A program made the position numbers and the translations under genes. From positions 1 to 53,429 of the forward strand of contig JADHTQ010000027.1 in NCBI GenBank assembly GCA_016784965.1: a stretch of DNA of 53,429 nucleotides, read 5' to 3'. A model generated the notes under the pieces. The model did not search any database and had not been told where the DNA came from. It saw nothing but the letters and a program-made list of their open reading frames with translations. The stretch is from Bacteriovoracaceae bacterium (GTDB lineage Bacteria > Bdellovibrionota > Bacteriovoracia > Bacteriovoracales > Bacteriovoracaceae). How positions within the stretch are numbered: position 1 is the first letter of the stretch; every line of letters begins with the position of its first letter. Below, piece by piece: positions 8,684 to 46,332 of this stretch.

Positions 8684-8694
8684 GGGAGAAAGTG

Positions 8695-9753: not shown

Positions 9754-9774
9754 AACTTAAATTGGAGAAAAAAG

Positions 9775-11211
9775 ATGGGAAAAATATTACAAAAACCAAC
9801 AGGATTCTATGATAAGTTTGTTAGAAAGCCTGGTACATATGATCAAGTAACTCATTACTGCCCCGGCTGTGGACACGGACGTATCCATAAATTAATTGCC
9901 GAGGCCATGCAAAATTTAGAAATTGGTGACCAAACGGTTTTTATCTCTCCAGTTGGTTGCTCGGTATTTGCCTACTACTACTTCGATTGTGGAAATATTC
10001 AATCAGCACATGGTAGAGCACCCGCTGTTGGCACCGGAGTCGCAAGAAGTAACCCTCACGCTATAACCATCAGCTATCAAGGTGACGGTGATTTGGGTGC
10101 AATTGGTACTTCTGAAATTATCCATGCTGCCAATCGAGGCGAGCGGATGACAATCATTTTTGTTAATAATGGAATTTATGGGATGACCGGAGGCCAAATG
10201 GCCCCCACAACATTACCAGGACAAATTACTAGTACAACTCCATATGGGCGTGATGCAGCAACAACAGGGCTGCCAATGAAAATGTGTGAAATTATCTCTC
10301 AATTAGATGCCCCAGTATATGTTGAAAGAACGGCAGTGACAGACGCCAAGGGCATTATGAAAACAAAAAGAGCGATCACGAAAGCTTTAAAGTCACAGAA
10401 AGAGGGCTATGGATTTTCATTTGTCGAGATTTTGTCAGCTTGTCCTATCGGTTGGAAAATGTCTGCCAATGACTCCATAAAAAGAATTGAAGAGGAGATG
10501 ATTCCATATTTTCCGCTAAAAACTTTTAAAGATGAAATTGCAGATAGAACTCCCAGGCCAGTAGTACCTGTAGCACCTTCTCAGGAGGATGTGTTAAAAG
10601 CATTAGGTCATGATCAAAAAGAGGAAATACTATTTAAAAATGACAAAAAATTTATAGATGATTTTACTACTCAAAAGGTTAGAATCGCAGGTTTTGGCGG
10701 CCAAGGTGTTTTGATGGCCGGTACAACGCTTGGCATGCTGGGAATGGAACTAGGATTGGATGTAACATGGTTGCCGTCTTATGGTCCAGAAATGAGAGGT
10801 GGCACCGCCAATTGTCACGTGGTTTTATCCAATAAAGAAGTTGGATCTCCTGTTGTTGAGTCACCAAATGTTCTAATTGCGATGAATGAACCGTCTCTTG
10901 TGGAATTTGAGCCGAGTGTAACACCTGGAGGTTTGGTAATTGTAAACTCTTCAGTTGTAGTCGGAAAATGTAAAAGAAGTGATGTGACGGTTTTAGAAAT
11001 TCCCATGACAGAGATTGCAGACTCATGTGGCCTCAAGGCCGCTGCCAATATGGCTTCTATAAGTGCATATCTGGCTTTTTCAAAAGTAATAGAAAAAGAT
11101 CAACTGGTGACTTTAATTAAGGCCAAGTTTAAGAAAAAATCTTTGATCGAGCAAAACGTAGCCGTTATCGAAGCAGCATACAAATATGTGAGTGATCATG
11201 TTAGGGGCTAA
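9775..11211 (+). CDS. 2-oxoacid:ferredoxin oxidoreductase, fused beta and gamma subunits
   Basis: The 478-residue protein joins two subunits. Residues 1 to about 290 are the beta, thiamine diphosphate-binding part, with HYCPGCGHGRIHK near residue 28 and GDGDLGAIGTSE leading to VNNGIYGMTGGQ. From about residue 300, VRIAGFGGQGVLMAGTTLG, PSYGPEMRGGTANC and EPSLVEFEPSV mark the gamma part. Beta-gamma fusion is known in some VorB/KorB-type enzymes. GGAGA precedes ATG. Its 3' end overlaps the alcohol dehydrogenase start by 14 bases, which suggests coupled translation. Confidence 0.9.
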   Translation: MGKILQKPTGFYDKFVRKPGTYDQVTHYCPGCGHGRIHKLIAEAMQNLEIGDQTVFISPVGCSVFAYYYFDCGNIQSAHGRAPAVGTGVARSNPHAITISYQGDGDLGAIGTSEIIHAANRGERMTIIFVNNGIYGMTGGQMAPTTLPGQITSTTPYGRDAATTGLPMKMCEIISQLDAPVYVERTAVTDAKGIMKTKRAITKALKSQKEGYGFSFVEILSACPIGWKMSANDSIKRIEEEMIPYFPLKTFKDEIADRTPRPVVPVAPSQEDVLKALGHDQKEEILFKNDKKFIDDFTTQKVRIAGFGGQGVLMAGTTLGMLGMELGLDVTWLPSYGPEMRGGTANCHVVLSNKEVGSPVVESPNVLIAMNEPSLVEFEPSVTPGGLVIVNSSVVVGKCKRSDVTVLEIPMTEIADSCGLKAAANMASISAYLAFSKVIEKDQLVTLIKAKFKKKSLIEQNVAVIEAAYKYVSDHVRG

Positions 11212-12361
11212 CATAACTCTAAATTGGCCTTCGACCATAGAGTTTGGAGAAGGCAAATTAGAAAGACTAATAGAGCATCTAAAGGACAACAAAAGAGTTT
11301 TCTTTTTAGTTGATCAACATATTGTCGGCAAGATTGATCCTATTACTTCTAAACTCAAAAGTATGGGGATATCTACACAAGTATCCACTGAGATAGTGCC
11401 CGAGCCTCCACTTGAAGCTTTAGAACAGCTACTTGAGCCAGTTAGAAGTTTTGCACCTGATGCTATTGTAGGTGTAGGGGGAGGATCAACTCTCGATTTG
11501 GCCAAACTGGTAGCGGTCTTGTTTGACGGCTCTCAAAATGTTATGGATATTATTGGTGTTGGATTGGTCAAAGACAGAAAGGTAAAGCTAATTACAGTTT
11601 CTACCACCTCAGGAACTGGCAGTGAAGTGACCCCGATTGCAGTTTTAACAGATGTTCAGCAAAAGCTAAAAAAGGGAGTCGTTAGCCAATTTTTAATTCC
11701 AGATGTGGCAATTGTAGATCCACTATTAACTTTAAGTGTTCCCAAATCTATTACTGCAGCAACTGGAATGGATGCCATAGTTCATTGTATTGAAGCTTAT
11801 ACAAACCGTTTTGCACATCACATAATTGATAATATTGCCCTAGAGGGAATTAGATTACTTTCTAAAAATTTAGAAAGTGCTGTAAAAACTGGCGATGATA
11901 AACAGGCAAGAAGTGCATGTGCTCTTGGTAGCATGTATGGAGGCATGTGTCTTGGGCCTGTGAATACTGCAGCCGTACACGCAATGGCCTATCCTTTGGG
12001 AGGAGAGTTTAAAATTTCTCATGGCGTTTCAAATTCAGTACTTCTGCCATTTGTCATGATCTATAATCTTCCAAGCTGTACTGCAAAGTATGCCAATATT
12101 GCCAAGGCCATTGGGGTAGAGCGCAAAGCAGGGGAGACAGACGAGACTGTGGCCATGAATGGAATTTTGAGATTAAGAGAGATCGCACTTAATTGTGAAA
12201 TTCCCTCAAATATAAAAATGTTGGATGTTCCAGAAGATGCTATTGATTCCATGGCTCATAGTGCGTTAAAAGTTACAAGGCTTATGGCAAATAACCCCAG
12301 AGAAATTGATTTTGATAGCGCTAAAGAAATTTATACTAAGGCTTACAAAGGGATTTTATAA
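11198..12361 (+). CDS. Iron-containing (group III) alcohol dehydrogenase
   Basis: The 387-residue protein is a Fe-ADH family member: GVGGGSTLDLAK binds NAD(P), TTSGTGSEVTP follows, and the metal site is visible as GMDAIVHCIEAY (Asp and His) and HAMAYPLGGEFKISHG (first and last His). The middle His of the usual HAMAHPLG is Tyr here. Such enzymes reduce aldehydes to alcohols or the reverse. ATG 11198 is used; GTG 11192 in the same frame is possible, and neither has a clear ribosome site, consistent with coupling to the overlapping upstream gene. Together with the next gene it could convert an acid or aldehyde to an alcohol. Confidence 0.88.
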   Translation: MLGANITLNWPSTIEFGEGKLERLIEHLKDNKRVFFLVDQHIVGKIDPITSKLKSMGISTQVSTEIVPEPPLEALEQLLEPVRSFAPDAIVGVGGGSTLDLAKLVAVLFDGSQNVMDIIGVGLVKDRKVKLITVSTTSGTGSEVTPIAVLTDVQQKLKKGVVSQFLIPDVAIVDPLLTLSVPKSITAATGMDAIVHCIEAYTNRFAHHIIDNIALEGIRLLSKNLESAVKTGDDKQARSACALGSMYGGMCLGPVNTAAVHAMAYPLGGEFKISHGVSNSVLLPFVMIYNLPSCTAKYANIAKAIGVERKAGETDETVAMNGILRLREIALNCEIPSNIKMLDVPEDAIDSMAHSALKVTRLMANNPREIDFDSAKEIYTKAYKGIL

Positions 12362-14092
12362 ATGAAGGGTTTTTTTAATAAAATTTTATATATAGATCTA
12401 TCAAATGAGTCTTTTCATTATCAAGATATTACGGATGATCTTTTAGGTCGTTGTTTAGGTGGAAAAGGTCTTGGGGCCCATCTTCTTATGAAAGAAAATG
12501 AGCAGGGAGTAGATCCGCTGTCTAAAGACAATGTGTTCATTATTGCTACTGGACCAATTACTGGCACTATGGCCTGGAGTCAATCACGCTTTGGAGCCTA
12601 TACAAAAAGCCCAGCCACTGGTGGTTTTGGTGAATCCTATTGTGGTGGTTCACTGGCACCTAAAATAAAAGGCTGTGGAGTAGATGCCATTGTCATCAAG
12701 GGAGGAGCATCTAAGCTAAGTTACCTGGCCATTGATGAAAGTGGAGTGAAGTTTTGTGATGCAACTGCCATCTTACAAGCTGAGACATTTGAAAGTGAAG
12801 ACTATATTTTAAAGGATGCACCAAAAGGTGCAGGAGCGATGGTCATAGGTCCTGCCGGTGAGAACCTAGTTCGTTTTGCTTGCATCAAGTCTGACAAGTG
12901 GAGGTCACTGGGCCGTGGTGGACTGGGAGCTGTTTGGGGAGCTAAAAACCTAAAAGGTATTTCGTTTTCCGGCAAAAAAAAATGTGAGATTGCCAATCAG
13001 GATCTGTTGAAAAAGTTTGTGAAAATTATCTCTCAAAAAGGCAAAGAAAGTCCGGTAACCGCCTTATACCAAAAACTAGGCACCCCCATGCAAGTAAAGG
13101 TCATGAATGCCAAAAAAGGTTTTCCAACCCGTTACTGGCAAAAGGGATACTTTGATGGGTGGGAAAAACTTTCTGCTGATTATATGCAAGAAAATTTTGA
13201 GGTTAGTCAGCACCCATGCCCAACTTGTTTTTTACGATGTACGAAACACTCAGTTGTAAAAAATGGAAGACATAAGGGGCTGGAGCTTGAGGGACCAGAG
13301 TTTGAAACTATCTATGCTTTGGGAGGCCTGAGTGAAATAGACTCATTAGAAGAGGTCGCCTGGCTAAATGTTCTTTGTGACAAACTTGGAATTGATACTA
13401 TGAGTGCTGGTAATATTGCCGCCTTTGCAGTCGAGGCCCATAAGGCCTCTAAAATTGATTTTGAGATCGATTATAACCAACCAGATCGAATCGCAGAACT
13501 TTTTGGCCTAATTTCAAAAGGTGAAGGCGTAGGTAAGATTTTTCAAAAAGGTATTAAAGAAGCTTCAAAAGAACTCGGTCTTGAAGATATAGCTATTCAC
13601 GTGAAAGGGTTAGAGCCTGCCGGATTTGATCCACGAGTGCTAAAGGGAATGGGATTATCTTATGCAACTTCGGCCAGAGGTGCTTGTCACTTGCGTGGAA
13701 CATTTTATAAAGCAGAACTATCAGGCATGATGGACCCAGATCAAATTAAGGGCAAGGCCAAACTACTAATTGATTTTGAAGATCGTGCAGCAATTTTTGA
13801 TAGTATGGTCCTTTGTCGCTTTTTTAGAGATTATATTTTGTGGGATGAGCTACTAATGCTTATCGAGGCAACAACTGGGAAAATTTATACTAAGGAGCAA
13901 CTTGCTGATCTGGCCAATGAGACCACCAACCTTACGCGCAGGTATAATCATCGCGAAGGATTGGATAGCTCGACGGACACGTTACCTAAGCGTTTTTTAA
14001 CTGAGGCAACAAAAGAGGGGGCAACCATGTCCCGGGAAGATTTAGATATGATGATCAAAGAATATAATGAACTTAGGTCAAAAAATATTTAA
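12362..14092 (+). CDS. Aldehyde:ferredoxin oxidoreductase (tungsten/molybdenum pterin enzyme)
   Basis: The 576-residue protein has the size and order of AOR-family enzymes. Residues 1-210 form the pterin-binding domain (LGGKGLGAHLL, ATGPITGT, SPATGGFGESYCGG). Iron-sulphur ligands appear as CPTCFLRC near residue 285 and a distal Cys in VLCRFF near 484. The family interconverts aldehydes and carboxylic acids with ferredoxin. ATG directly follows the alcohol dehydrogenase stop, with AAGGGA upstream. No molybdopterin or tungstate uptake genes are in the window. The specific aldehyde is unknown; linkage to a 2-oxoacid oxidoreductase suggests aldehydes or acids from amino acid or hydroxyacid breakdown. 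Confidence 0.9.
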   Translation: MKGFFNKILYIDLSNESFHYQDITDDLLGRCLGGKGLGAHLLMKENEQGVDPLSKDNVFIIATGPITGTMAWSQSRFGAYTKSPATGGFGESYCGGSLAPKIKGCGVDAIVIKGGASKLSYLAIDESGVKFCDATAILQAETFESEDYILKDAPKGAGAMVIGPAGENLVRFACIKSDKWRSLGRGGLGAVWGAKNLKGISFSGKKKCEIANQDLLKKFVKIISQKGKESPVTALYQKLGTPMQVKVMNAKKGFPTRYWQKGYFDGWEKLSADYMQENFEVSQHPCPTCFLRCTKHSVVKNGRHKGLELEGPEFETIYALGGLSEIDSLEEVAWLNVLCDKLGIDTMSAGNIAAFAVEAHKASKIDFEIDYNQPDRIAELFGLISKGEGVGKIFQKGIKEASKELGLEDIAIHVKGLEPAGFDPRVLKGMGLSYATSARGACHLRGTFYKAELSGMMDPDQIKGKAKLLIDFEDRAAIFDSMVLCRFFRDYILWDELLMLIEATTGKIYTKEQLADLANETTNLTRRYNHREGLDSSTDTLPKRFLTEATKEGATMSREDLDMMIKEYNELRSKNI

Positions 14093-14102
14093 GAGGCAAA
14101 AA

Positions 14103-15053
14103 ATGAAGATTGTAATTTTAGACGGACATACTGTTAATCCTGGAGATTTGGATTGGAAACCACTTGAAAAAATTGGTGATGTTGCTGTTTATCCTAGAAC
14201 CAGCAGCGACCAGGTTCTAGAGAGATCAATGGATGCCGAAATAATTATTACTAGTAAAGTTATAATAGATAAGGACATAATCAACAAACTGCCAAAGCTG
14301 CGTTATGTTGGGGTTATTGCCACTGGTTTTAATGTAGTAGATATAGAAGCTGCCCGCCAAAAAAATATCGTAGTAACCAATGTAGCAGCTTACAGCACCT
14401 CATCGGTTGTGCAGTTAGTTTTTGCTCACATTCTAGAGTTGGCCAGAAGAGTTGGACATCACGACCAGTCAGTAAAAAGTGGCCAGTGGTCAAAGGCTTC
14501 TGACTTTTGCTACTGGGATTTTCCACAGGTTGGGCTGGATAAGAAGGCCTTGGGTATTATAGGATTTGGCAATATTGGGCAAAGTGTGGCCGCTGTTGGC
14601 AGCAGTTTTGGAATGAAGATTATTGCACATGACAATTTTATAGATAAATCCAAGCACTCAGATGTTGAGTTTGTCGAGCTAGATTCTATTTTTAAAAGAA
14701 GCGACTTTTTGAGTATTCATTGTCCACTTACTGATGAGACGAAGAACTTGATAAACAAAGATAATCTTATAAAAATGAAAAAGACCGCCTACCTCATTAA
14801 TACAAGTAGAGGACCTGTAGTAAATGAACTGGACTTGGCTTGGGCCTTAAATACTGGAGAAATTGCAGGTGCTGGACTTGACGTTTTACAAGTGGAGCCA
14901 CCGGGTGATAACCCACTGTTTAAGGCCAAAAATTGTTATATCACTCCTCATATCGGGTGGGCCTGTTTTGAAGCGAGGTCTTTGTTGATTGAACTTACTG
15001 CTTCGAATGTAGACGCATTTTTAGCAGGTGACCCCATCAATGTAGTAAATTGA
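14103..15053 (+). CDS. D-2-hydroxyacid dehydrogenase (glycerate/hydroxypyruvate reductase-like)
   Basis: The start is placed at ATG 14103, because AGAGG lies six bases upstream and MKIVILDGHTVNPGD is a typical beginning; this gives 316 residues. The NAD site GFGNIGQSVA is near residue 155, and the catalytic Arg (NTSRGPVVNE), Glu (DVLQVEPP) and His (TPHIGWACFEAR) are all present. These enzymes interconvert 2-oxoacids and D-2-hydroxyacids. It lies between the AOR and LarA-like genes and ends in TGATG, sharing one base with the next start. It would supply 2-oxoacid to the ferredoxin oxidoreductase or drain it. The substrate is not decidable from sequence. Confidence 0.9.
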   Translation: MKIVILDGHTVNPGDLDWKPLEKIGDVAVYPRTSSDQVLERSMDAEIIITSKVIIDKDIINKLPKLRYVGVIATGFNVVDIEAARQKNIVVTNVAAYSTSSVVQLVFAHILELARRVGHHDQSVKSGQWSKASDFCYWDFPQVGLDKKALGIIGFGNIGQSVAAVGSSFGMKIIAHDNFIDKSKHSDVEFVELDSIFKRSDFLSIHCPLTDETKNLINKDNLIKMKKTAYLINTSRGPVVNELDLAWALNTGEIAGAGLDVLQVEPPGDNPLFKAKNCYITPHIGWACFEARSLLIELTASNVDAFLAGDPINVVN

Positions 15054-16222
15054 TGATCGATAAACTAGTAAAGATTAAACAAAATTTCCCTAATCATGCC
15101 ATAGATGACGTTCTATTGTACTTGCAAGATTTACTTAAAAATTCGAAGTTAAACATACTACCTGGTAGTAAAATTGCTATAGCAGTTGGAAGTCGAGGAA
15201 TCAACAACCTGCCTCTTATTGTCAAAACCCTGGGAGAATGGTTGGTTGATCTTGGCGCCCATCCTTTTGTTGTGCCTGCTATGGGCAGTCATGGTGGGGC
15301 TACAGCTTTAGGACAAGTTGAAATTTTAAACTCTTTAGGAATTGATGAAAAGGCGATGGGCATGCCTATCTGCTCTTCTATGAAGGTTGTTGAATTAGAG
15401 CAAGAGGGTACTGAGTTTAAGGCATATATGGATGAGCAAGCATATTTGTCTGATGGAGTTATTCTAATTAATAGAATTAAGCCACACACCGATTTTAAGT
15501 CTGACTTTGAAAGTGGCCTGGTTAAAATGGCAACCATTGGCCTTGGAAACCATAAACAGGCCCAAGCAATTCATCGCTTAGGGGTTGAGGGCCTAAAAAA
15601 TGTTATGCCCCAGATTGCAAAAATAGTTTTTGATAGCGAAAAAATTATAATGGGTGTGGGCATTGTAGAAGATGGAAATGATGAAACAGCAGTTATAAAG
15701 TGTTTACCAACATCAAAGATTTTTATTGAGGAGCCACTTTTGTTGAAGAAGGCCAAGGACTATATGCCATCTCTGCCCACAGATGAAATAGATATTTTGA
15801 TTGTAGATCAGATTGGAAAAAACATTAGTGGCACAGGCCTTGATCCAAACATTATAGGAAGAATAAAAATATTAGGTGAGTTGGAACCAAAGCGGCCAAA
15901 AATTAAAATTATCATAGTTGATGATGTTACTGCCGAGTCCCACGGCAATGCAATAGGAATTGGTTTGGCCGATATTATTACTAAAAAGCTATACGATAAG
16001 ATTAATTATCAAGCCATGTATGAAAATGTTTTAACGAGTACTTTCATTGAAAGGGCCAAGGTTCCATTGGTAGCAAATGATTTAAATGAAGCTTTCAAGA
16101 TCGCAAAGTCTGTCTGTGGACTAGTAGAAGAGAGCAAACTACGAGTTGTAAGAATTAACAACACACTTGATCTAAGTGAGGTAGAGGTTTCAAAAAGTAT
16201 TTTGGAGTCTATGTCTAATTGA
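15053..16222 (+). CDS. LarA-like (lactate racemase N-domain, DUF2088) protein
   Basis: The 389-residue protein shows the family features PAMGSHGGAT near residue 80, NRIKPHTDFKSDFESGLVKM near 140 and IGLGNHKQAQAIH. The family includes LarA, a nickel-pincer 2-hydroxyacid racemase, and many homologues of unknown substrate. ATG 15053 overlaps the upstream TGA; TTG 15050 is an alternative. It is the last gene of the operon and is followed by a GC-rich terminator. Next to a D-2-hydroxyacid dehydrogenase, racemisation or epimerisation of a 2-hydroxyacid is the natural guess. No larB, larC or larE cofactor genes are present here. A non-nickel role is possible. Confidence 0.75.
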   Translation: MIDKLVKIKQNFPNHAIDDVLLYLQDLLKNSKLNILPGSKIAIAVGSRGINNLPLIVKTLGEWLVDLGAHPFVVPAMGSHGGATALGQVEILNSLGIDEKAMGMPICSSMKVVELEQEGTEFKAYMDEQAYLSDGVILINRIKPHTDFKSDFESGLVKMATIGLGNHKQAQAIHRLGVEGLKNVMPQIAKIVFDSEKIIMGVGIVEDGNDETAVIKCLPTSKIFIEEPLLLKKAKDYMPSLPTDEIDILIVDQIGKNISGTGLDPNIIGRIKILGELEPKRPKIKIIIVDDVTAESHGNAIGIGLADIITKKLYDKINYQAMYENVLTSTFIERAKVPLVANDLNEAFKIAKSVCGLVEESKLRVVRINNTLDLSEVEVSKSILESMSN

Positions 16223-16371: not shown

Positions 16372-17880
16372 ATGCACCACGCAAAGTATAAATTAGTACT
16401 CACACTTTTCTTAATAGTTTTAATGAACACGGCTATTGGTGCACCGAGTCAACCTTTGCCGCAATACGTCATGTTGGCGTTTGATGGTTCAAAGTCACAT
16501 AATATGTGGAACAAAACCCTTGATTTTAGTAAACGGATGAAAAGAGACAAAAATTTAAATATTAAATTTACTTATTTCATAAGTGGCGTCTATTTTCTAA
16601 CTAGAGGCAAAAGAAAATTGTATGATCCACCAAAGCACAGGGCGGGAGCGTCAGCGATTGGTTTTGCAAAAACTAAAGAAAGTATTGGTCAGAGGGTCAA
16701 CTACTTAAATGAAGCACTGATGGATGGCCATGAAATAGCATCTCATGCAAATGGTCACTTCGATGGATCATCTTGGTCTCAATCGGACTGGGAGTCAGAG
16801 TTTAATTATTTTGAAGATCTTCTTTTTAATTTTGATGTTAACAATGAAATTAATAATGTTTCCCTAGATTTAGATAAGTCACAAATTATAGGTTTTAGGG
16901 CACCTCTGCTTGGTGTTTCTAGAGGCCTTTGGCCTGCACTCAAGCAATTTGGGTTTCGCTATGATACAAGTAAAGTGCGCGGAGAAGTTTATTGGCCAGA
17001 AATTTATCCAGCTAGTGGTGCATGGAACTTTCCTTTGGCCAGTTTTAAAATTGCAGGTACTGGTAAGAGAACACTTTCAATGGACTACAATTTTTATGTG
17101 GCTCAATCAAAAGCAAAAAAAGAGCGCGATCCAAGTAAGTTGAGGCGTTTTCAATCTCAAATGTATGAAACTTATATTAACTATTTCAAGAAAAATTACA
17201 ATGGTAAAAGGGCCCCGATCCACATTGGTCACCATTTCTCGCTTTGGAACAATGGAATTTATTGGAGAGCAATGAAAGACTTTGCAGTTGCCGTTTGCGG
17301 GCTGCCACAGGTACGGTGTGCAACCTATAAAGAACTTGCTGATTATATGGATAATCACGGTCAAGAGCATCTAAATGCTAATAAATCAAATGCACCTTCA
17401 TATCCTCTACCAAAAGCTTTACCGAAACTTACTAGAAAGCCTGAGTTTTCTCGCCCGCTTGAGATTTCTGCAAGTATGAAGTCACGTGGAGATGAAGTTT
17501 ATGCAGTGTTGTCAGGGCAAGATAAAGCTTGGTTGCAAGATAAAGTACGCTATCAATGGGAAGTTAATGACACAATAGTTTCTTTAAAGCAACGTATTAA
17601 ACTATCTAAGATTGATTTGCTTAAGCAAAGTCCACGTGCAATTTTGGCACTGTCTGTTAAAAAAGGTGGCCACGAGATTTTGCGAGTAACCAAAAGAGTT
17701 GTAAGAAATATGCTAATGAATATTGGTTCTAAGGCCTATACACACTTCACACTTTCTAATGACACCCTTGAGGATCAAATGCTTAAGGGGGATCACGTCG
17801 GTGCACACATGCACGAAGGTGAGTTTGATGTGGTACAAGACTTTCTTGAACAAGATGAAGCATTCACAATCGATATTTAA
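16372..17880 (+). CDS. Exported polysaccharide-deacetylase-fold (NodB-like) protein
   Basis: The 502-residue protein has a signal peptide (about 1-24), then a NodB-like domain to about residue 330. MLAFDGSKS stands at the first motif, where the family usually has F-D-D; HEIASHANGH near residue 122 gives the HxxxH metal motif; GFRAPLLGVS is the Arg-Pro motif; and PIHIGHHFSLWNNG supplies the late His. The second Asp of motif 1 is Gly, so a metal ligand may be missing. The C-terminal 150 residues look beta-rich and are of unknown role. CTGGAG precedes ATG. A periplasmic role on peptidoglycan or another amino-sugar polymer fits the family, but activity is uncertain. Confidence 0.8.
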   Translation: MHHAKYKLVLTLFLIVLMNTAIGAPSQPLPQYVMLAFDGSKSHNMWNKTLDFSKRMKRDKNLNIKFTYFISGVYFLTRGKRKLYDPPKHRAGASAIGFAKTKESIGQRVNYLNEALMDGHEIASHANGHFDGSSWSQSDWESEFNYFEDLLFNFDVNNEINNVSLDLDKSQIIGFRAPLLGVSRGLWPALKQFGFRYDTSKVRGEVYWPEIYPASGAWNFPLASFKIAGTGKRTLSMDYNFYVAQSKAKKERDPSKLRRFQSQMYETYINYFKKNYNGKRAPIHIGHHFSLWNNGIYWRAMKDFAVAVCGLPQVRCATYKELADYMDNHGQEHLNANKSNAPSYPLPKALPKLTRKPEFSRPLEISASMKSRGDEVYAVLSGQDKAWLQDKVRYQWEVNDTIVSLKQRIKLSKIDLLKQSPRAILALSVKKGGHEILRVTKRVVRNMLMNIGSKAYTHFTLSNDTLEDQMLKGDHVGAHMHEGEFDVVQDFLEQDEAFTIDI

Positions 17881-21059: not shown

Positions 21060-21848
21060 TTAATCTGAAAAGATGCTAGAAATTGCTGATACGGCATCCA
21101 CTTCACCTCTTCTAGATCCTCCAGAGGTGGGTGCGTGCTTAACAATTCTATCTGCAAAACGAGAAAATGGAAGTGATTGAATCCAAGCATATCCAGTTCC
21201 AGTTAAGTTTGCCAAAAATAATCCCTCTCCACCAAAAAACATTGATTTCAAATTGCCAGCTCGTTGAATATCATAATTGATACCTTTGGTAAATGCTACG
21301 ATACATCCAGGATCAATGGCCAATGAATTTCCTTCAAGCTTTACCATATGGATTGCACCACCTGCGTGAATAAAGGCCTTACCATCACCTTCGAGTTTTT
21401 GCAAAATGAAGCCTTCCCCGCCAAAGAATCCCGCTCCAATTTTTTTTGTGAACTCAACGGAAATTTTTGTACCTAAAGCAGCACATAAAAAAGCATCTCG
21501 TTGGCAAATAATTTTTCCCATTACTTTTTTAAAATCTATGGGAATAATTTTGCCAGGATATGGAGCGGCAAAATATACTTTCTTTTTACCACGACCCTCA
21601 TTTGTAAAGTGGGTTAAAAATAGTGATTCATTGGTCAAAAGCCTCTGACCTGCATTTAGCAGCTTAGACATTAGTCCCTTGTCGGTGTTAGAGCCATCTC
21701 CCATTTTTGCTTCAAAGTTAATTCCCTCTTCCATAAACATCATACTACCGGCTTCAGCAATAACTGTTTCTCCAGGGTCTAGTTCAATTTCAATGTATTG
21801 AACATCGTCGCCATATACACAGTAATCTATAACATCACTTTTCATCAA
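21060..21848 (-). CDS. AIM24 family (TIGR00266-like) protein
   Basis: The 262-residue protein matches the AIM24/DUF124 pattern of Gly-rich beta-helix-like repeats: [23 protein letters not shown] near the N-terminus, [37 protein letters not shown] and [24 protein letters not shown]. The typical paired FFGGEG motifs are both present. Bacterial members are often found with TerB- or TerD-type genes; molecular function is unclear. It starts four bases inside the end of the phosphonopyruvate decarboxylase gene, so translation is likely coupled. This ties it physically to phosphonate biosynthesis. Confidence 0.88.
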
Positions 21849-22981
21849 TTTGCTCCAAAATTGAGATGGTTCATAAAACTTTGCTTATTTTGGGCAGGAG
21901 TTGATTTTGGCCTGCCAAGATTTTCTCGTGCTCCAGTTTGCACTACCACTTCAAGAAGTGCGGGACCTGGTGTTTGGTAAAAGTCGGGGAGGATTTTGGT
22001 TAGCTCACCTTTACTTGAAGCCTTATATACTTTCTGGTATCCCGCCCCTTTGGCGACTTCTTGGAAATTGAGGAAAAAACCAACCGTCGGCTGGCCTCCA
22101 ACAGAGTCATGGGTGCCGTTATTGAAAATTATATGTTTAAAATTTTTAGGTGCAAGATCCCCGATAATTCCAAGACCCCCCATATGCATTATCGCCGCAC
22201 CATCTCCGTCATAACAAAAGATTTGTTTGTCTGGCTTATTTAAGGCCACTCCTAAAGCAATTTGTGACACATGTCCCATAGAACCAACATTTAAAAAATC
22301 CTGACAAGGTTGTTCTTTTCTCATTCGGTACTCATACAATTCGCGGGAGATTTTGCCTGTAGTAGATAAAACTATATCTTTATCTGTATGTAAAAAATCG
22401 GTAATGATTCCAATTGCAATCTCTCTTTTTAAAATGGCCAAAGAAGATTTTTTACTCTGTAGTTTGTATTTTGCAAATGTACCCTTTTTTACCACTAAGG
22501 CATATGGCCTTGAAGTTTCTTTCATCAGTTTAACGGCATCATCAATTACTGCTTTTGCACTCTCAATGTCTTCTGGCAATACTTTATACGGGATCTCCAT
22601 TGTATCAAGTAGGGCAGTAGTTATTTTTCCCTGCTTTTTATGTTGAGGTTCGTCGTGGACCCCGGGTTCACCTCGCCAACCAATTAACAGCAACATGGGA
22701 ATACCATAAACTTCAGGATCTGTTAGAGACGCCAGAGGATTGATTGCATTGCCGATTCCAGAGTTTTGCATATATACCAGAGGTATTTGGGAGGTGGCCA
22801 AATATGAGCCAGTTGCCAGGGCAATGGCATTTCCTTCATTGGCGGCGATTATGTGATTAAGCTTAGTAGTGTTATCTGTAGTATATGCGCAGAAGTCTTT
22901 TAAAAGTGAGTCTGGAACTCCTGTAAAAAAATTAATGTCATAATTGCCAAGAAGGTCAAAAAATTGCTTACAATTAACCAC
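21845..22981 (-). CDS. Phosphonopyruvate decarboxylase
   Basis: The 378-residue thiamine diphosphate enzyme converts phosphonopyruvate to phosphonoacetaldehyde, the step that pulls phosphonate synthesis forward. Features: [14 protein letters not shown] near residue 18, [16 protein letters not shown] with the catalytic Glu, [15 protein letters not shown], and the cofactor motif [13 protein letters not shown] leading to [14 protein letters not shown]. It is 11 bases downstream of the PEP mutase gene. The combination and order make assignment to this family rather than sulfopyruvate decarboxylase very likely. The next enzyme (2-aminoethylphosphonate transaminase) is not beside it. Confidence 0.92.
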
Positions 22982-22992
22982 GGTTTGATCCT

Positions 22993-24294
22993 TTAGATAG
23001 TTTCAGGAATTAAAGTAATAATTTCTTTAATTGGCATACAGGCTTCAGAGGCCTCAAAACATCTCTTATGGGTTAGAATCGATTGAGCTGTTTTTTGCAT
23101 GGCCGGAAAAGCACTTCTTAGTAGATGGTTAGCATATATTACAATTTTTACGCCAGCATCAATTAGCTCATCTTCTGTAATTGTAGAGTAAGTAGAGGGG
23201 ACAACCACTAGTGGTACTTTTGTATCAAATTTTTTGTACTCATTACAAAATGCTAAGATTTCTTGAGGAGTTTTTTCTTTACTATGAATCATTATGCCAT
23301 CTGCACCTGCTTCAATATAGGACCGTGCTCTAGTGAGAGCATCTTCTAAACCAGTTTTTAGAATCAGACTTTCAATTCTAGCAATAATCATGAAGTCCTC
23401 AGTTACCTGCGCTTGTTTACCCTTAGAAATTTTGTGGGAAAAATCAGAAATTGTGTCTTGTTTTTGTTTTGCATCTGTTCCAAATAAAGAATTTCTTTTG
23501 GCACCAATTTTGTCCTCAATAATCACTGCAGACACTCCGAGGCGCTCAAGAGTTCTTACTGTAAAGGTGAAGTGTTCTGTAAGTCCCCCGTTATCGGCAT
23601 CAACAACCATGGGTTTAGTTGTTACTTCTAAAATTTGGTCAATGGTGCTTACTCTTGATGAAATATCCACGGCAGATGTATCTGGTTTGCCCTTGGACGT
23701 TGAATCGGTCAAACTGCTCTCCCACATTCCATCAAATTCTCGCAATTCATCGTTTATCTCAAGGTGGGTATTTTCAGCAATCAGACCCGTTAATCCATTA
23801 TGCACTTCTAAAATTCTAACCAGAGGTTTAGCATTTATCAGACGTCTTAGAGATTTCATTCGCATATCGGGAGTAGTGCCAAACTTTCTGACCGTTTGTG
23901 TGAGGTGAGTCGAAGAGAGTTCTGTGGTATATTCAGGCTCTATCAACTCGCCGCCCCACTGCTTGAGGGTTTCGATGACATTTTTTCTGACCCCACTAAG
24001 TGGCCCTGTTTTCCAATCTGTGCCATGGATAACATAATTGGGCCTTAGGCTTTCTAAATTATTTGTATACTCAACAGTGTCTTGAGGGATAACCTCTTTC
24101 ACGCCGCGAATATTTAACATAATTTCCCGTCTTTGTTCATAGGTCAAAAGGGGAAGTCTTCTATACTTAGCAATAGCCGAATCGGTTAGTACACCGACTG
24201 TAACCTCTCCTAGCTCTCTTGCAACATTGATAATATTTAGATGGCCACCGTGGATGAAGTCTGCTGCCATGCCGACGTAAACTTTTTTTGACAT
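22993..24294 (-). CDS. Cytidylyltransferase-phosphoenolpyruvate mutase fusion
   Basis: The 433-residue protein has two parts. Residues 1 to about 135 form a small nucleotidyltransferase with HGGH at 15-18 and GTDWKTG near 91. Residues from about 150 are a PEP mutase with DADNGG at 232-237 and the signature EDKIGAKRNS at 260-269. PEP mutase converts phosphoenolpyruvate to phosphonopyruvate, forming the C-P bond. The fused transferase suggests that the product is activated with CTP for transfer to a lipid or polysaccharide; such fusions are known. AGAGGA precedes ATG. It is first in a five-gene reverse operon and diverges from metH across 150 bases. Confidence 0.93.
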   Translation of the reverse strand: MSKKVYVGMAADFIHGGHLNIINVARELGEVTVGVLTDSAIAKYRRLPLLTYEQRREIMLNIRGVKEVIPQDTVEYTNNLESLRPNYVIHGTDWKTGPLSGVRKNVIETLKQWGGELIEPEYTTELSSTHLTQTVRKFGTTPDMRMKSLRRLINAKPLVRILEVHNGLTGLIAENTHLEINDELREFDGMWESSLTDSTSKGKPDTSAVDISSRVSTIDQILEVTTKPMVVDADNGGLTEHFTFTVRTLERLGVSAVIIEDKIGAKRNSLFGTDAKQKQDTISDFSHKISKGKQAQVTEDFMIIARIESLILKTGLEDALTRARSYIEAGADGIMIHSKEKTPQEILAFCNEYKKFDTKVPLVVVPSTYSTITEDELIDAGVKIVIYANHLLRSAFPAMQKTAQSILTHKRCFEASEACMPIKEIITLIPETI

Positions 24295-31391: not shown

Positions 31392-32591
31392 CTAATAACC
31401 TCTGGCGGTCAGATCTTTTTTTATGGGTATATCTCGATATTTTTTTACAATTTTTACAATGGACCAACTACCGCCAACATCATGCACTATCCCTGAAGCT
31501 ATCAGTAGATTGCCCCCTAAGAAGTTATTCTTGTATATATCAATTTTCATTCCTTTGTGAACATCATTGGATATCCCGGCATCTATTTTTACAAATTTCC
31601 CTCTTGGTGATACCTTAATAACGGTCGCTTCAATATTGTATTCTTTAAATGCTTCAATTTTTTGTTTTGTCTTTGAAGTACCACCAGACTGCCATGAAAT
31701 GCTTAGATCTACTCCGAATCCTTGGTCAGTTGAGACCCCATAAAAGGCATAATTTCCTGCCACTTTTATTTTAAAGCGCTTATTAGAAAACATGATACCG
31801 GCATATGCAGAAGCCAGACCTCGATTTATGCTATTAAAAAGATAAGTTGATCCTGTCAACATTTGTGGCTTGTTGTTTGGATCATCACTATACTCATCAC
31901 TAGAAAGTGTATAGATGCCATCTACTCCTGCAAGAAAGGTAAATGATGCTAGAGTGTATGCATTTTCTGCCTTATAGACTATTTCATGAGAGAGTGAATT
32001 TGGCGGCATTTTATAACCTACCATTGCTGTGAGGTAATCGTTATAAGATAGTTGATAGCTCAAAATTGCACCGGCCAATATCTCTGAGCCAGAATCTCCA
32101 AGTTCAAGATCACTTGATGATCCTCCAGAGCTTCCAAAATTATTTTCATAGAGAGTTTTGCGATATTTAAAAAGTGCAGCATAGTAGAGGTCTCCTACCG
32201 CATCAAAAGAATACTTAAATTGCCCCCATAGAGATTCAAAGCCAGAGTTTGATGTGATTGCTCCAGAAGATGAAGTGGAGGTGATACTTCTATATCCGAT
32301 ACCAACATTGATTTCTAGGTTGGTATTTATACCGTAAAATAAATTGAATGCTCCATCCACTTTAGAGTATGCCTCTTCCATTTGCATATCTACTTGATCT
32401 CCATTTAAGTCATAATGTCCGGTAGTTTGAAAATAATTTCCAGAAAGTTGTATTTTGGTGGCCTTTTCAGGCATGGTCTTTGCGATTGGGGTGTAAATGT
32501 TTTTATCGCGCAATATTTTTGCATAACTGTTAGGTGCAACAAAATAGCAAGTCAATGATACCAGGAGTATCGTCCATTTCTGTGTTTGCAT
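31392..32591 (-). CDS. Probable outer-membrane beta-barrel protein with a C-terminal SH3-like domain
   Basis: The 399-residue protein has a signal peptide (about 1-24) and then many amphipathic strands typical of outer-membrane barrels (for example TNLEINVGIGYRSITS and FKIKVAGNYAFYGVS), to about residue 315. The last 80 residues change character: VIKVSPRGKFVKIDAGISNDVHKGMKIDIY looks like the small barrel domain found at the end of FlgT-like and other envelope proteins. It follows a kinase-like gene ten bases upstream, and the two are probably cotranscribed. Transport or adhesion role unknown. Confidence 0.65.
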   Translation of the reverse strand: MQTQKWTILLVSLTCYFVAPNSYAKILRDKNIYTPIAKTMPEKATKIQLSGNYFQTTGHYDLNGDQVDMQMEEAYSKVDGAFNLFYGINTNLEINVGIGYRSITSTSSSGAITSNSGFESLWGQFKYSFDAVGDLYYAALFKYRKTLYENNFGSSGGSSSDLELGDSGSEILAGAILSYQLSYNDYLTAMVGYKMPPNSLSHEIVYKAENAYTLASFTFLAGVDGIYTLSSDEYSDDPNNKPQMLTGSTYLFNSINRGLASAYAGIMFSNKRFKIKVAGNYAFYGVSTDQGFGVDLSISWQSGGTSKTKQKIEAFKEYNIEATVIKVSPRGKFVKIDAGISNDVHKGMKIDIYKNNFLGGNLLIASGIVHDVGGSWSIVKIVKKYRDIPIKKDLTARGY

Positions 32592-39805: not shown

Positions 39806-42800
39806 ATGAGCGTAGCAAAGAAATCTCGGGGAGCGCTAGATCCCCTGATATCTTTATTTAAAAAGGAAAAAGTTGAAACATGGTTTGATATCGGTTTGTT
39901 TTTGGACCGCATTAAGGATAATCGTCAAGAATTTAATTTGCCCAGTACATTCAAAAAATTTAAAACTAGTATCAAGTCCGGAGTTGCATTTATCACTTTT
40001 GACTTTGGGATAGATGGAGTTACCATGGAGATTGCCAAATATGGCAGGGCCCTAGAGCGCATCTATCAGTCACCTGGCGATAAGAGCAAACATAAAATCA
40101 ATATACATTGTCTGGGAGGGATTTTTTTTAAAGAAGCCGATACCATTTTGCCTGAACACTGGGAGAAAAAACTAATTGAAAAGATGGCCGGCTTTGGTGA
40201 GTGGGATGGTTATAAAGAATATTTTCATACCCATTTAAACCGTGGAAGTGCTGAGTATAATCAACTTGCTAAAAAAGTGTGGAACCAAGCAGTGATCATT
40301 AGTTTGGAACTGGGTGAGTATATAGTTGACAATGATATAAAGCTATTGATTCCAGTAAATATTAATGCAAATCCAGGTAATGTTTCTTTGGCCATGAGCT
40401 TGGCAATTGTTTCTGAATTTATGGATATACCTGTGCTGGCAAGTCATCACGATTGTTATTGGGAGGATGGTAAAAGAAAAAGAGACCGCATAAAAATGTC
40501 AGAGCGCACAGGCCTTAGAGATCACTTCTTTTTAAATACTCATCTAGGAGAGGTCTTTTCACCTATTGAAGTGCTGTATCCTTGGGAAGGAAAAAGGTGG
40601 TTTCATACTACAATAAATGCCTTGCAAAAAAAGAGTCTTGTAAAAAAATATGGGTTCAACCAACTAAGTATTGGTCATATGCCTACTTCAATTAAAATGT
40701 CCAAATATAGGCCGGTTAATATCAATGAGATAGAAGATATTTTAAAAAGACTACATTTGGTTTTAAGCGAGGGGCAGAAGCAATTAATATCTCAAGATGC
40801 TTTCAAAATAGATATTAGTGGTCATTGCTACAAGTCTAATGAGGAAAGAGCTCCACTAGTTATTGGTCATCAAGCAGGGCTTAAAATAAATTTGCGAAGG
40901 GGCAACCTGCTTTTTGTCCAGCCCACACGAATTTTAAGCAGAAAAAGTATTGAGACCAATTTTTTATTTATTGATTTACTTCTGCGCAATAGGAAGTTTT
41001 TTAACTTTTTTAACTCTAACCCTAACCTAACAATAACAATACTAATTACAGGACCAGTTGCCAGTGGTCATGAATTATACTTTGAGAGGTTATTGGATGA
41101 CTTCAAGAAGATGCTTGAGGGAACAATAGAAGAGTTTAAAGATAGAATCTTTTTGGCTTGTACTTTCTGTATTGATAATAAAGAAGTCTTAAAGAAAATG
41201 TCTCTTAAAGATTTAGAAGTTAATGAAATCTATTCAGTAGCATCATTAATTTTACTTCCAAGCAAGACTGAAGGTCGTGGATTGCCAATAATTGAGAGCT
41301 GTTCTGCAGGTGTTCCTATCATTTGTAACCGCTACGCTCCTGAACATGTATATGCAGATGTTATCGGTGAGATGTTAGAAGAGTCCAAACGCTTTAGAGT
41401 CTTTGAATTTGCAAATGAAGAGTTTAATGAAGACTTTCTTGACAGAGTTGCAGAAATATTTATCGACCCCAGAAGTTTGAAGGATTTGATCCTTAGAAAT
41501 ATGGAGGTAGTTAAAAAGCGTTACAGTAATAAAATTTTAGTTAAATCGTTTGAACATTTTTTACAAAAACTTTGGCTCAGGTCAAAAGAAGACACAGTCG
41601 TTGAAGCCAACGTTAAGGCAGCGTTTAGGTTACATAATAAAAGAACCAAATACGATGAACAGTTTAGTAAAGTAGTGCTTAGTGAGAACAGAAAGTATAT
41701 CCCGGGTCTAACAATTACAGAATTTATGATATATTTAAAGTCTTTAATTGATCCAAGTTACTTTAGGTTAGAGGAAATGGAATTTAGAGGCAGAATGATG
41801 GCCTTTTCTGAATCACTAGTAAGGATGTACTATCGCAGAAAAAAAGTTGATGAGGAGCAAAGATCTTTTTTTCTAAAGCATGTGGACTATATATTTGAGT
41901 ATTATAGTGGTAAAGATAAGTTAGCGATTGATCACTCCTTAAGTTATAGACACCGTCACAGAAGAAAATATCCATTTAGAAAACTGACTGAGCAAGAATT
42001 GTGTGGAATAATTGGTATAATTTTTCGCGATGTTTTTGACCCCACCTTCCCGCCACATTTGAAAACAAGGACCTTAGGGCACTTTAATAGTCTTAAGGGA
42101 TCGATTATGCAGCTCATAGGAAGCACTAAAGAAAAGTTGGCGATTGATTCAAGTGCCAGGTTACTTGATGATTTAAGATCTAACAAAGAGATTGCCCTTT
42201 TTGTTGGTCATCACTTCAAAGCAGAGATAAATATTTTTGTGCTCAATGTTTTAAGAGAGAGGCTGGGAATATCATTTGACCAAGAATTATCAGAGGAGAT
42301 ATTGCAAAAACGATCATTAGATGGAATTGGCAAAGTTTCTGTATTTGTGCGCAAGGAACCATTGAACGATATTTCTGCAGAATTTTTACTAGAATGGCTA
42401 GAAAAAGATGCCTTTTTAGAAATTAAGCGTTTGTATGAATGTGGTTTATTTGAAATTGTTGAAACGAGTATTCTCGCTTCAGGTATTCACCTTGGACAAT
42501 TGGGAAAACCAGCTTTAAAAGCGCTAGAGAAAATAAAAAACAATGGTGGTATTGTAATCGCTAGTGGTGAAAATAGTTTTATGGTGGACATGATAGATCT
42601 ATCTTCATATCGCTTTGGAAAAGTTAACAATGAGTTAATGGCAAACTTTATGGGAATCAATCTAGGCGAGTCATACATTCAATGGGTTCCAGCGGGCCTT
42701 AAGCCTTCACTTGCATACCCAACTCCAATTCAAACACCTAAAGAATTTTCTGAAGTTATTGAAAGTGACCTGTTTAAAGAGTGTGTCGATAAATTGGGAG

Positions 42801-44017
42801 AGGATGAGGTTTTAAAAGTTTTGCGAGATGATGCAGACAAATTTGGTAACCCCATTAAAGATGAATTAGAAAAATTAGTTGCTTCCAATTTAGATCCAGC
42901 TCATGATCACAATTCTTTGAAGTTTACACAAATTAATGGAATGTATGATGATCAGCTTCCTTGGTCTGGAGCTTTAGCGGAAGTTCATCTAAATGGCGAG
43001 TCTTGGAAATTTGTAACAGCATTTTCGGGTAAAGTGGCCAAAACGGTATTGGAGTTAGTTGATAACTACCAACAAAAAAGCAACGAAGTTGTATCCTTTG
43101 CCTGGAATGGTGGATATATATTAAACAATGAACTTGTAGGAAAGCTTGGCCTTGGGGAAGAATACATCGGTTCCCCTTTAGGGTATCTGTGTATTGATGG
43201 CAAAGTTATTTCGCTTCCGCTTTATAATAAGGCAACTTTTTTAATTGATAAAGAGGGGCAAATTACCATAGAGCGTGTGAATTTAAAAAATGGGCTAAAG
43301 ATAAAATTTGGTGCAAGTTGCCTTGAAATGTCCAGCAAGCAAAGGAACAAGGCAAGTTCTCAAGACCCCATCTACTATGATCTTTTGTTTGCCCAAGAGA
43401 CAATAGCAGCAAAAGATAGGATTATTTATCGCTTTGTTGGAAACATTGTCAGCGAAATTATCACAGATGTTAGTCAACCAGTAGAGATCATTCCTGTGGG
43501 GCTTACTGTCTCATGTCCAAAAACCAAAGCATTAAAAGGGATTAAAGTGGGAAGTGAGGTCGAATATGAGCTTCCAGGCCTTGAGCACATTAAAGATGCA
43601 ATTGAAGCTGGACCGCTGTTGGTTAAATCTTCTAAAGTTTCCATTGATATGGAAATAGAGGGATGGAAAACTGAGCACTCAATAAGCACCCAAGCTGCAC
43701 GCTTGGACTTTTTGGATATGCGAGGCCCAAAAATGGGGGTTGGCATAACTCGGGATAACCGTTTAATACTTATTGCCATAAATGGTAGAATTAGAGAAAG
43801 TGTCGGTGCAACTCATATCGACTTGGCCAACATTTTAAAAAGTTTTGGAGCATACTCGGCGATGGGTTTTGATCCAGGTGGATCAGTCACACTGGTTGTT
43901 CATGGCAAGCAGTTGAATATCTCTCCGTATAATAAAGACTATGAAGATAATGTTTATAGTTTGCCCCCCACACCTCGGATGGTGGGAAACGCGATACTGG
44001 GTATTAATGCCCGATAG
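39806..44017 (+). CDS. Glycosyltransferase fused to C-terminal phosphodiester glycosidase (NAGPA-like)
   Basis: This 1403-residue protein has no signal peptide. Residues 30 to about 570 look like a GT-B glycosyltransferase: NPGNVSLAMSL and SHHDCYWEDGKR near 213 in the N-lobe, and LLPSKTEGRGLPIIESCSAGVPII near 482-505 in the donor lobe, as in GT4 enzymes. Residues about 620-1030 are a helical region I do not recognise. From about 1040 a NAGPA/DUF2233-like domain appears: VSFAWNGGYI, GSPLGYLCIDGKVI, GVGITRDNRLILIAINGR, and a GFDPGGSVTL where the family has a DGGGS-type loop. NAGPA domains cleave sugar-phosphate-sugar diesters. The fusion suggests that one chain makes and trims a glycan. GAGG precedes ATG. 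Its end overlaps the convergent aminotransferase gene by 14 bases. Confidence 0.85.
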   Translation: MSVAKKSRGALDPLISLFKKEKVETWFDIGLFLDRIKDNRQEFNLPSTFKKFKTSIKSGVAFITFDFGIDGVTMEIAKYGRALERIYQSPGDKSKHKINIHCLGGIFFKEADTILPEHWEKKLIEKMAGFGEWDGYKEYFHTHLNRGSAEYNQLAKKVWNQAVIISLELGEYIVDNDIKLLIPVNINANPGNVSLAMSLAIVSEFMDIPVLASHHDCYWEDGKRKRDRIKMSERTGLRDHFFLNTHLGEVFSPIEVLYPWEGKRWFHTTINALQKKSLVKKYGFNQLSIGHMPTSIKMSKYRPVNINEIEDILKRLHLVLSEGQKQLISQDAFKIDISGHCYKSNEERAPLVIGHQAGLKINLRRGNLLFVQPTRILSRKSIETNFLFIDLLLRNRKFFNFFNSNPNLTITILITGPVASGHELYFERLLDDFKKMLEGTIEEFKDRIFLACTFCIDNKEVLKKMSLKDLEVNEIYSVASLILLPSKTEGRGLPIIESCSAGVPIICNRYAPEHVYADVIGEMLEESKRFRVFEFANEEFNEDFLDRVAEIFIDPRSLKDLILRNMEVVKKRYSNKILVKSFEHFLQKLWLRSKEDTVVEANVKAAFRLHNKRTKYDEQFSKVVLSENRKYIPGLTITEFMIYLKSLIDPSYFRLEEMEFRGRMMAFSESLVRMYYRRKKVDEEQRSFFLKHVDYIFEYYSGKDKLAIDHSLSYRHRHRRKYPFRKLTEQELCGIIGIIFRDVFDPTFPPHLKTRTLGHFNSLKGSIMQLIGSTKEKLAIDSSARLLDDLRSNKEIALFVGHHFKAEINIFVLNVLRERLGISFDQELSEEILQKRSLDGIGKVSVFVRKEPLNDISAEFLLEWLEKDAFLEIKRLYECGLFEIVETSILASGIHLGQLGKPALKALEKIKNNGGIVIASGENSFMVDMIDLSSYRFGKVNNELMANFMGINLGESYIQWVPAGLKPSLAYPTPIQTPKEFSEVIESDLFKECVDKLGEDEVLKVLRDDADKFGNPIKDELEKLVASNLDPAHDHNSLKFTQINGMYDDQLPWSGALAEVHLNGESWKFVTAFSGKVAKTVLELVDNYQQKSNEVVSFAWNGGYILNNELVGKLGLGEEYIGSPLGYLCIDGKVISLPLYNKATFLIDKEGQITIERVNLKNGLKIKFGASCLEMSSKQRNKASSQDPIYYDLLFAQETIAAKDRIIYRFVGNIVSEIITDVSQPVEIIPVGLTVSCPKTKALKGIKVGSEVEYELPGLEHIKDAIEAGPLLVKSSKVSIDMEIEGWKTEHSISTQAARLDFLDMRGPKMGVGITRDNRLILIAINGRIRESVGATHIDLANILKSFGAYSAMGFDPGGSVTLVVHGKQLNISPYNKDYEDNVYSLPPTPRMVGNAILGINAR

Positions 44018-45372: not shown

Positions 45373-46332
45373 GTGAAGTTAGCAAGTTCATTTCCCTTTA
45401 ATACACTTGTGGCGCAAAGAGAACAGCAGTTTTGTAATCTTCAAACATCCATCATTTTAAATCAGAACTTACAGAGACACTCAAATTTATTGCAATCGAT
45501 AGAGGATTCAAAAAAATTGACAATTAATGGAGAATTTACTTTTGAGTCACTGAATGAGTGTGTTCAAGCAATCGAGAAACATTCATATCGATATACAAAA
45601 CTCCAGTTTATGGAAACGATTCAAAGCATTGCATCGATATTTATGGAGGAGAAATTTTCATATCTTCGAGAAATGATACCACAATTTGGCGATATAATTG
45701 ATAAGTACACATTAAAAGAAGCTGATATAGAGTGGATGAACAATATGTTACATCATACTTTTTCAAAATATGATGAACATATTAATGAACTCAAAACGAT
45801 TGATGAATTCATTCAGCAGATGGTTTATAACCTCTACGGGCAAACCATCAACCACTCCAAGGTTTTACCACCGGTTGACGGTATAGCTGCCGTGGTTTCA
45901 TCAGTAGCATTTTTTGGCACAGGTAATGTCATTGGTAACCTGTTTGCAAGCAATGCATTTGATTCAAATGCAAAGTTGGCCGAAATTCATCAGTGTATGG
46001 AGCATATTATCCATTATGTGGATAAATTTGATTTGATGTTGGATAGAATGCTGGCCAGTGCAGGGGAAATGGATGTGGTTTTTAGGGCAATAAGCGACAA
46101 GCTTGCCATGATGGAAATCAAGCTATACAGGGACTTAGAGGGGAAGTTGACCAATGTAGATGAAGTCTTTCATGAGTATTACTTGAGAGAATTATTTATG
46201 CTCGAACAAATTTATGACAGTCCTTTGCCGCTTTCATTACAACCGCAAACATACAGGGATATGGTAAATAGAATCAACGATGTGGTAGCAGAATATCAGC
46301 CAGCTATGGGGCACTCTCAAATGGCAGCATAG
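45373..46332 (+). CDS. Helical protein of unknown function with a central hydrophobic segment
   Basis: I do not recognise it. The 319-residue protein starts at GTG with AGGAG six bases upstream and has no signal peptide. It is predicted almost all-helical, with long amphipathic stretches either side of a Gly/Ala-rich hydrophobic segment at about residues 168-200 (GIAAVVSSVAFFGTGNVIGNLFA). The layout (helical bundle plus one hydrophobic hairpin) recalls alpha-helical pore-forming proteins, but no signature is visible, so this is only a shape comparison. A hairpin at about 45319-45342 lies in its leader. It is flanked by reverse-strand genes. Confidence 0.7.
   Translation: MKLASSFPFNTLVAQREQQFCNLQTSIILNQNLQRHSNLLQSIEDSKKLTINGEFTFESLNECVQAIEKHSYRYTKLQFMETIQSIASIFMEEKFSYLREMIPQFGDIIDKYTLKEADIEWMNNMLHHTFSKYDEHINELKTIDEFIQQMVYNLYGQTINHSKVLPPVDGIAAVVSSVAFFGTGNVIGNLFASNAFDSNAKLAEIHQCMEHIIHYVDKFDLMLDRMLASAGEMDVVFRAISDKLAMMEIKLYRDLEGKLTNVDEVFHEYYLRELFMLEQIYDSPLPLSLQPQTYRDMVNRINDVVAEYQPAMGHSQMAA

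Follow-up and report, generated by a model that had tools for sequence, protein, structure and literature searches.

A cytoplasmic GT4–DUF89-like–NAGPA-like fusion protein and a partner glycosyltransferase that probably form a two-gene sugar pathway

We analysed a 53,429-nucleotide stretch of DNA (the window; contig JADHTQ010000027.1, assembly GCA_016784965.1) from a Bacteriovoracaceae bacterium, in which positions 39806..44017 of the forward strand encode an unusually composed enzyme (P0001). The gene is one intact open frame of 1403 amino acids with an ATG start, and it carries three modules on one chain: from the N-terminus, a GT-B glycosyltransferase of the GT4 type, a module with a DUF89/ARMT1-like fold, and an NAGPA-like phosphodiester glycosidase. 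No signal peptide is visible in the 1403-residue sequence, and the highest 19-residue mean hydropathy, 1.69, lies within the glycosyltransferase domain, so that there is no clear membrane helix; the best reading is that of a soluble, cytoplasmic, multi-module carbohydrate enzyme. A sequence-only reading of this DNA had proposed a GT-B transferase and an NAGPA module fused on a single cytoplasmic chain without a signal peptide, and the intact frame, the Pfam matches and the folds predicted by AlphaFold2 bear this out. We ran the predictions in two overlapping parts, residues 1-612 with an input alignment of 23 family members and residues 592-1403 with one of 22.

The first module (residues ~54-593; 39965..41584, + strand) is predicted to be an active transferase. 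Pfam Glycos_transf_1 matches residues 469-510 at 24.9 bits, slightly below its cut-off of 26.4. The model of residues 1-612 (predicted local distance difference test score, pLDDT, 88; predicted template modelling score, pTM, 0.84) has a GT-B fold with Z scores of 21.9 to 7mi0 and 4xso in the PDB, and the closest structures are GT4 enzymes such as HepE, PimB' and BshA (Z 20-22). Homologous modules are 34-49% identical to the query, and R375, K380 and both glutamates of the EX7E motif (EGRGLPIIE, residues 489-497, 41270..41296, + strand; E489 and E497) are invariant in 23 sequences, which leads us to expect an active, retaining GT4 enzyme. The module also occurs in transferase-only versions: a 577-residue paralogue in the host genome, 40% identical (G000:C119, L002), and another (L044) in a genome that belongs to the same class as the Aminicenantes metagenome-assembled genome (MAG). 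At a further locus (L076 8069-10947, G892:C172) a transferase-only version overlaps a different GT4 gene, a second pairing of this module with another transferase.

The middle module (residues ~615-984; 41648..42757, + strand) has been described as some 400 residues of helical, unknown sequence, a description that the structure prediction overturns: the model of residues 592-1403 (pLDDT 80, pTM 0.75) contains two domains, of which this one is alpha/beta in architecture and folds like DUF89/ARMT1. Its Z scores are 18.9 to At2g17340 (1xfi), 17.5 to PH1575 (2g8l) and 17.0 to AF1104 (2ffj), dropping to ~7 for unrelated entries, and Foldseek matches it to DUF89 at an expect value (E) of 1e-6. The assignment is one of fold: the module has no Pfam match, and in hhalign its profile gave a non-significant P of 0.15 against nine bona fide DUF89 proteins of related genomes. 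Residues 611-729 also hit alpha-mannosidase IA in the PDB (E=0.14), a weak match that we rejected as chance. In each of the nine DUF89 proteins, DN(A/C)G follows the first core strand; at that site, mapped by strand order, none of 21 aligned fusion members has DNxG, and most have a PGx(Y/F)xK-like sequence instead, VGHHFK in the window protein. Mapped in the same way, the second DUF89 aspartate position is not conserved across the 21 either. DUF89 phosphatases have two essential aspartates, Asp623 and Asp659 in PANK4 (PMC9352595); as both are apparently missing here, the middle module probably does not work as a conventional phosphatase. Among homologues it is 32-56% identical to the query.

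The C-terminal module (residues ~1033-1403; 42902..44014, + strand) is the most conserved of the family. Pfam NAGPA (PF09992) matches residues 1259-1397 with E=1.2e-16 and 61.8 bits against a cut-off of 25, which the other fusion members tested likewise exceed. Structure prediction confirmed that the C-terminal region has the NAGPA fold: the domain superimposes on guinea-pig NAGPA (6pku) with Z 23.2 and a root-mean-square deviation of 2.8 A over 239 residues. The N-terminal motif AWNGGY (43100..43117, + strand) corresponds in alignments to INGGFF of a secreted NAGPA, and the NGGY, PLxNK and AGP motifs are retained. Three conserved positions differ. The sequence-only reading had noted a loop altered to FDPGGS, and rightly so: in place of the canonical DGGGS, or of DGG(G/S)S more generally, the protein has DPGGS (residues 1356-1360; 43871..43885, + strand), invariant in the aligned members, with the Asp, the Gly-Gly and the Ser retained. 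Lys1309 aligns with the Arg of the R(T/S)xxG segment of 5h3k, 6pku and 3ohg, and a conserved Asp-Gly is Asn-Gly when compared with the solved structures and with a secreted NAGPA of another genome. The module is 44-59% identical to the query among homologues and has more than 80 invariant positions across 15 sequences; this identity, higher than that of the middle and glycosyltransferase modules, indicates strong constraint, and the module looks specialised rather than decaying. Elsewhere, a free-standing NAGPA-like protein without a signal peptide (L042, G840:C132:4388-5419), 30% identical to the C-terminal module, has lost both the NGG and DPGGS motifs and looks like a degenerate descendant.

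These substitutions raise the question of whether the additional modules are catalytic at all. The fusion might be a single-function GT4 enzyme whose NAGPA and DUF89-like modules serve as large sugar-binding or regulatory domains, as the apparent absence of the DUF89 Asp-Asn motif from all 21 aligned members, the three changes at conserved NAGPA positions, the degraded protein in G840, and the transferase-only paralogues of the host and of the Aminicenantes MAG's class, which show that the first module can stand alone, would all support. We consider this unlikely, as NAGPA is the most conserved module, with a number of invariant positions above the spacer expectation, and its loop changes are fixed and not decaying.

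The fusion is a conserved family. A search for the same fusion elsewhere, which the sequence-only reading had called for, found 21 further full-length homologues with 38-55% identity and the same module order in several bacterial lineages; the repeated order indicates a true gene and not a product of chance or misassembly. The distribution of the family is patchy and partly horizontal.

Comparison of gene neighbourhoods revealed a second GT4 protein, of ~425 amino acids, beside the fusion gene in many genomes. We determined its co-occurrence with the fusion in two samples, 291 genomes drawn from the host's phylum and 198 drawn from a Bacteroidetes order. In the former all 3 fusion-carrying genomes have the partner, against 1 of the 288 others; in the latter all 11 have it, against 0 of the 187 others. 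Combined, the partner accompanies the fusion in 14/14 genomes against 1/475 lacking it (Fisher p=3.5e-26, a value that overstates the case because the genomes share descent and are not independent), and the pattern holds in separate lineages. The sole genome with the partner and without the fusion, G011, has a stop codon reported within the match. Nine of ten further genomes found by similarity to the fusion (one of them, G067, also in the Bacteroidetes sample) contain the partner; in the tenth, G064, the contig stops soon after the fusion. Six genomes (G022, G060, G062, G063, G750 and G812) carry the two genes as immediate neighbours in the same orientation, with both gene orders represented; in the host genome the partner lies on a different contig from the fusion (G000:C49:142998-144269). 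Trees of the two genes largely agree. In both, the copy from G812, a genome of the Bacteroidetes-order sample, falls outside the main Bacteroidota group, a shared departure that suggests joint transfer, barring a binning error in that genome.

The partner retains QxTRxxxRKxIE and an EX7E motif, EGFGNAFVE. Its best NCBIfam match is mannosylglucosylglycerate synthase (NF041101), full length at 204-217 bits; the same family is the top match of the fused glycosyltransferase module (31 bits) and, weakly, of the free-standing paralogues. Both transferases are thus distant relatives of a branch known to make a small soluble glycoside. Because fusion and partner are found together in several unrelated lineages, they probably form an undescribed two-gene sugar pathway. 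The sequence-only reading, sound on the modules, the cellular location and the loop, had missed the DUF89-like fold, the partner and the spread of the family over several lineages. Its suggestion that the protein may build or edit a sugar-phosphodiester glycan would suit the modules present.

In Bacteroidetes, conserved genes flank the pair, among them one for a HemW-like radical SAM protein; as they are missing in other lineages, we judge them to reflect vertical synteny. In the window itself, a phosphonate biosynthesis pair lies ~15 kb from the fusion gene (21845-24294, - strand): a nucleotidyltransferase–phosphoenolpyruvate mutase fusion (TIGR02320, 401 bits against a cut-off of 320) and a phosphonopyruvate decarboxylase (TIGR03297, 484 bits against 312). 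A link between this pair and a phosphorus-containing glycan is possible. The window also encodes acetate kinase, a two-subunit pyruvate:ferredoxin oxidoreductase, an iron alcohol dehydrogenase and an aldehyde ferredoxin oxidoreductase (227-1441 and 8692-14092, + strand), from which the host looks like a fermentative anaerobe, and predicted proteins of 319-502 amino acids with no Pfam match at the thresholds used (45373-46332, 15050-16222, 16372-17880 and 31392-32591).

Phosphonate pathways feed surface glycans in some bacteria, and the proximity of such a pathway in the host is one of several observations that would suit a different role for the two proteins, in making the cytoplasmic precursor of a surface or lipid-linked glycan that the NAGPA module proofreads or trims before export. 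Many structural neighbours of the glycosyltransferase module serve cell-wall, lipopolysaccharide or glycolipid synthesis, and in G022 an MFS transporter gene follows directly downstream. That transporter gene is found in one genome only, however, the fusion has no membrane segment, and genes for a flippase, a polymerase, a phosphoglycosyl transferase or other polysaccharide functions do not recur next to the pair; we think such a role improbable, if worth keeping in mind.

On the host contig that carries the partner, a gene for a 518-residue TIR-domain protein (L073 10267-11823, - strand, G000:C49; Pfam TIR_2 E=2e-20) is the immediate upstream neighbour of the partner, with a 4-base overlap. 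In the other genomes we saw no member of this cluster adjoining the partner. The TIR gene, the patchy and partly horizontal distribution of the fusion, and a weak match to a GT4-conflict Pfam model would fit a role in conflict or defence, with a sugar or nucleotide as the target of modification. This we regard as very improbable: PADLOC matches neither the fusion nor the partner, a search of viral contigs found no fusion, and we recognised no recurring defence genes beside other copies.

We favour, tentatively and somewhat short of even confidence, a cytosolic two-gene pathway in which a soluble glycoside or glycan is built and the NAGPA module acts on a sugar-1-phosphodiester. Its observed basis is the module order, the predicted folds, the full-length conservation, the co-occurrence of the partner, and the GT4 donor-site residues of both transferases. 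In such a pathway the GT4 module and the partner would act in sequence, each transferring a single sugar from a nucleotide-sugar donor onto a small soluble acceptor, and the NAGPA module would then make or break a sugar-1-phosphodiester bond in the product or in the nucleotide-sugar donor. The animal uncovering enzyme also hydrolyses UDP-N-acetylglucosamine (PMC12024695), so that a nucleotide sugar is a conceivable substrate for a cytosolic NAGPA. With its catalytic aspartates apparently absent, the DUF89-like module may bind a phosphorylated sugar or hold and position the other modules. The likely product would be a solute-like soluble glycoside or a short glycan, formed via a phosphodiester intermediate. 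Several observations weigh against this cytosolic pathway: linkage of fusion and partner is not shown in the host genome or in several others; the partner scores only about a third of the 640-bit equivalog cut-off for mannosylglucosylglycerate synthase; the neighbourhood comparison found no gene besides the partner conserved nearby across lineages; and the fixed changes in the NAGPA module (DGGGS to DPGGS, R to K, DG to NG) could mean a different activity or a binding domain. More doubtful is the fuller proposal of an undescribed, horizontally mobile two-gene pathway to a novel soluble glycoside or glycan that contains a phosphodiester, with a cytosolic NAGPA-fold module whose rebuilt active-site loop makes it a transferase or hydrolase on sugar-1-phosphodiesters.

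NAGPA proteins are common in bacteria, but few of their substrates are, to our knowledge, known. Where a cytosolic NAGPA shares its chain with a glycosyltransferase and has a single partner enzyme, the search for a substrate is confined to a pathway of two proteins open to expression and assay, and, if our reading holds, the DUF89 fold has been reused within a sugar enzyme. Each module falls in, or resembles, a known fold family; for the fusion and for its pairing with the partner we found no description in a literature coverage that leaves out most subscription journals.

Four known systems frame the comparison. With the retaining GT4 glycosyltransferases (PimB', BshA, HepE and TreT) the first module shares the GT-B fold (Z 17-22), the EX7E motif and the Arg/Lys phosphate-binding pair; it differs in its length of ~540 residues, its insertions and an extra N-terminal helical segment, with 9-16% identity to the solved structures. 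The partner's relation to mannosylglucosylglycerate synthase, at scores so far below the cut-off, is one of sequence and need not extend to its substrates. The middle module has its fold in common with the DUF89/ARMT1 phosphatases At2g17340, PH1575 and AF1104 (Z 17-19 over 230-294 residues) and departs from them in lacking significant sequence similarity and in the apparent replacement of DN(A/C)G by a (P/V)Gx(Y/F)xK-like sequence. The C-terminal module has the same fold as the mannose-6-phosphate uncovering enzyme NAGPA and bacterial DUF2233 proteins (PF09992; 6pku, 3ohg and 5h3k; Z 22.5-23.6), with aligned NGG(F/Y), PLxN, AGP and DxGGS motifs; the eukaryotic mannose-6-phosphate comparison drawn earlier holds for this fold and does not extend beyond it. 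In contrast to these relatives, the fusion version is cytoplasmic and joined to other modules, has DPGGS for DGGGS, Lys for Arg and NG for DG, and carries segments specific to its family, ELVGKLGLPExYIGSP and TQAARLDxxDMRGPK.

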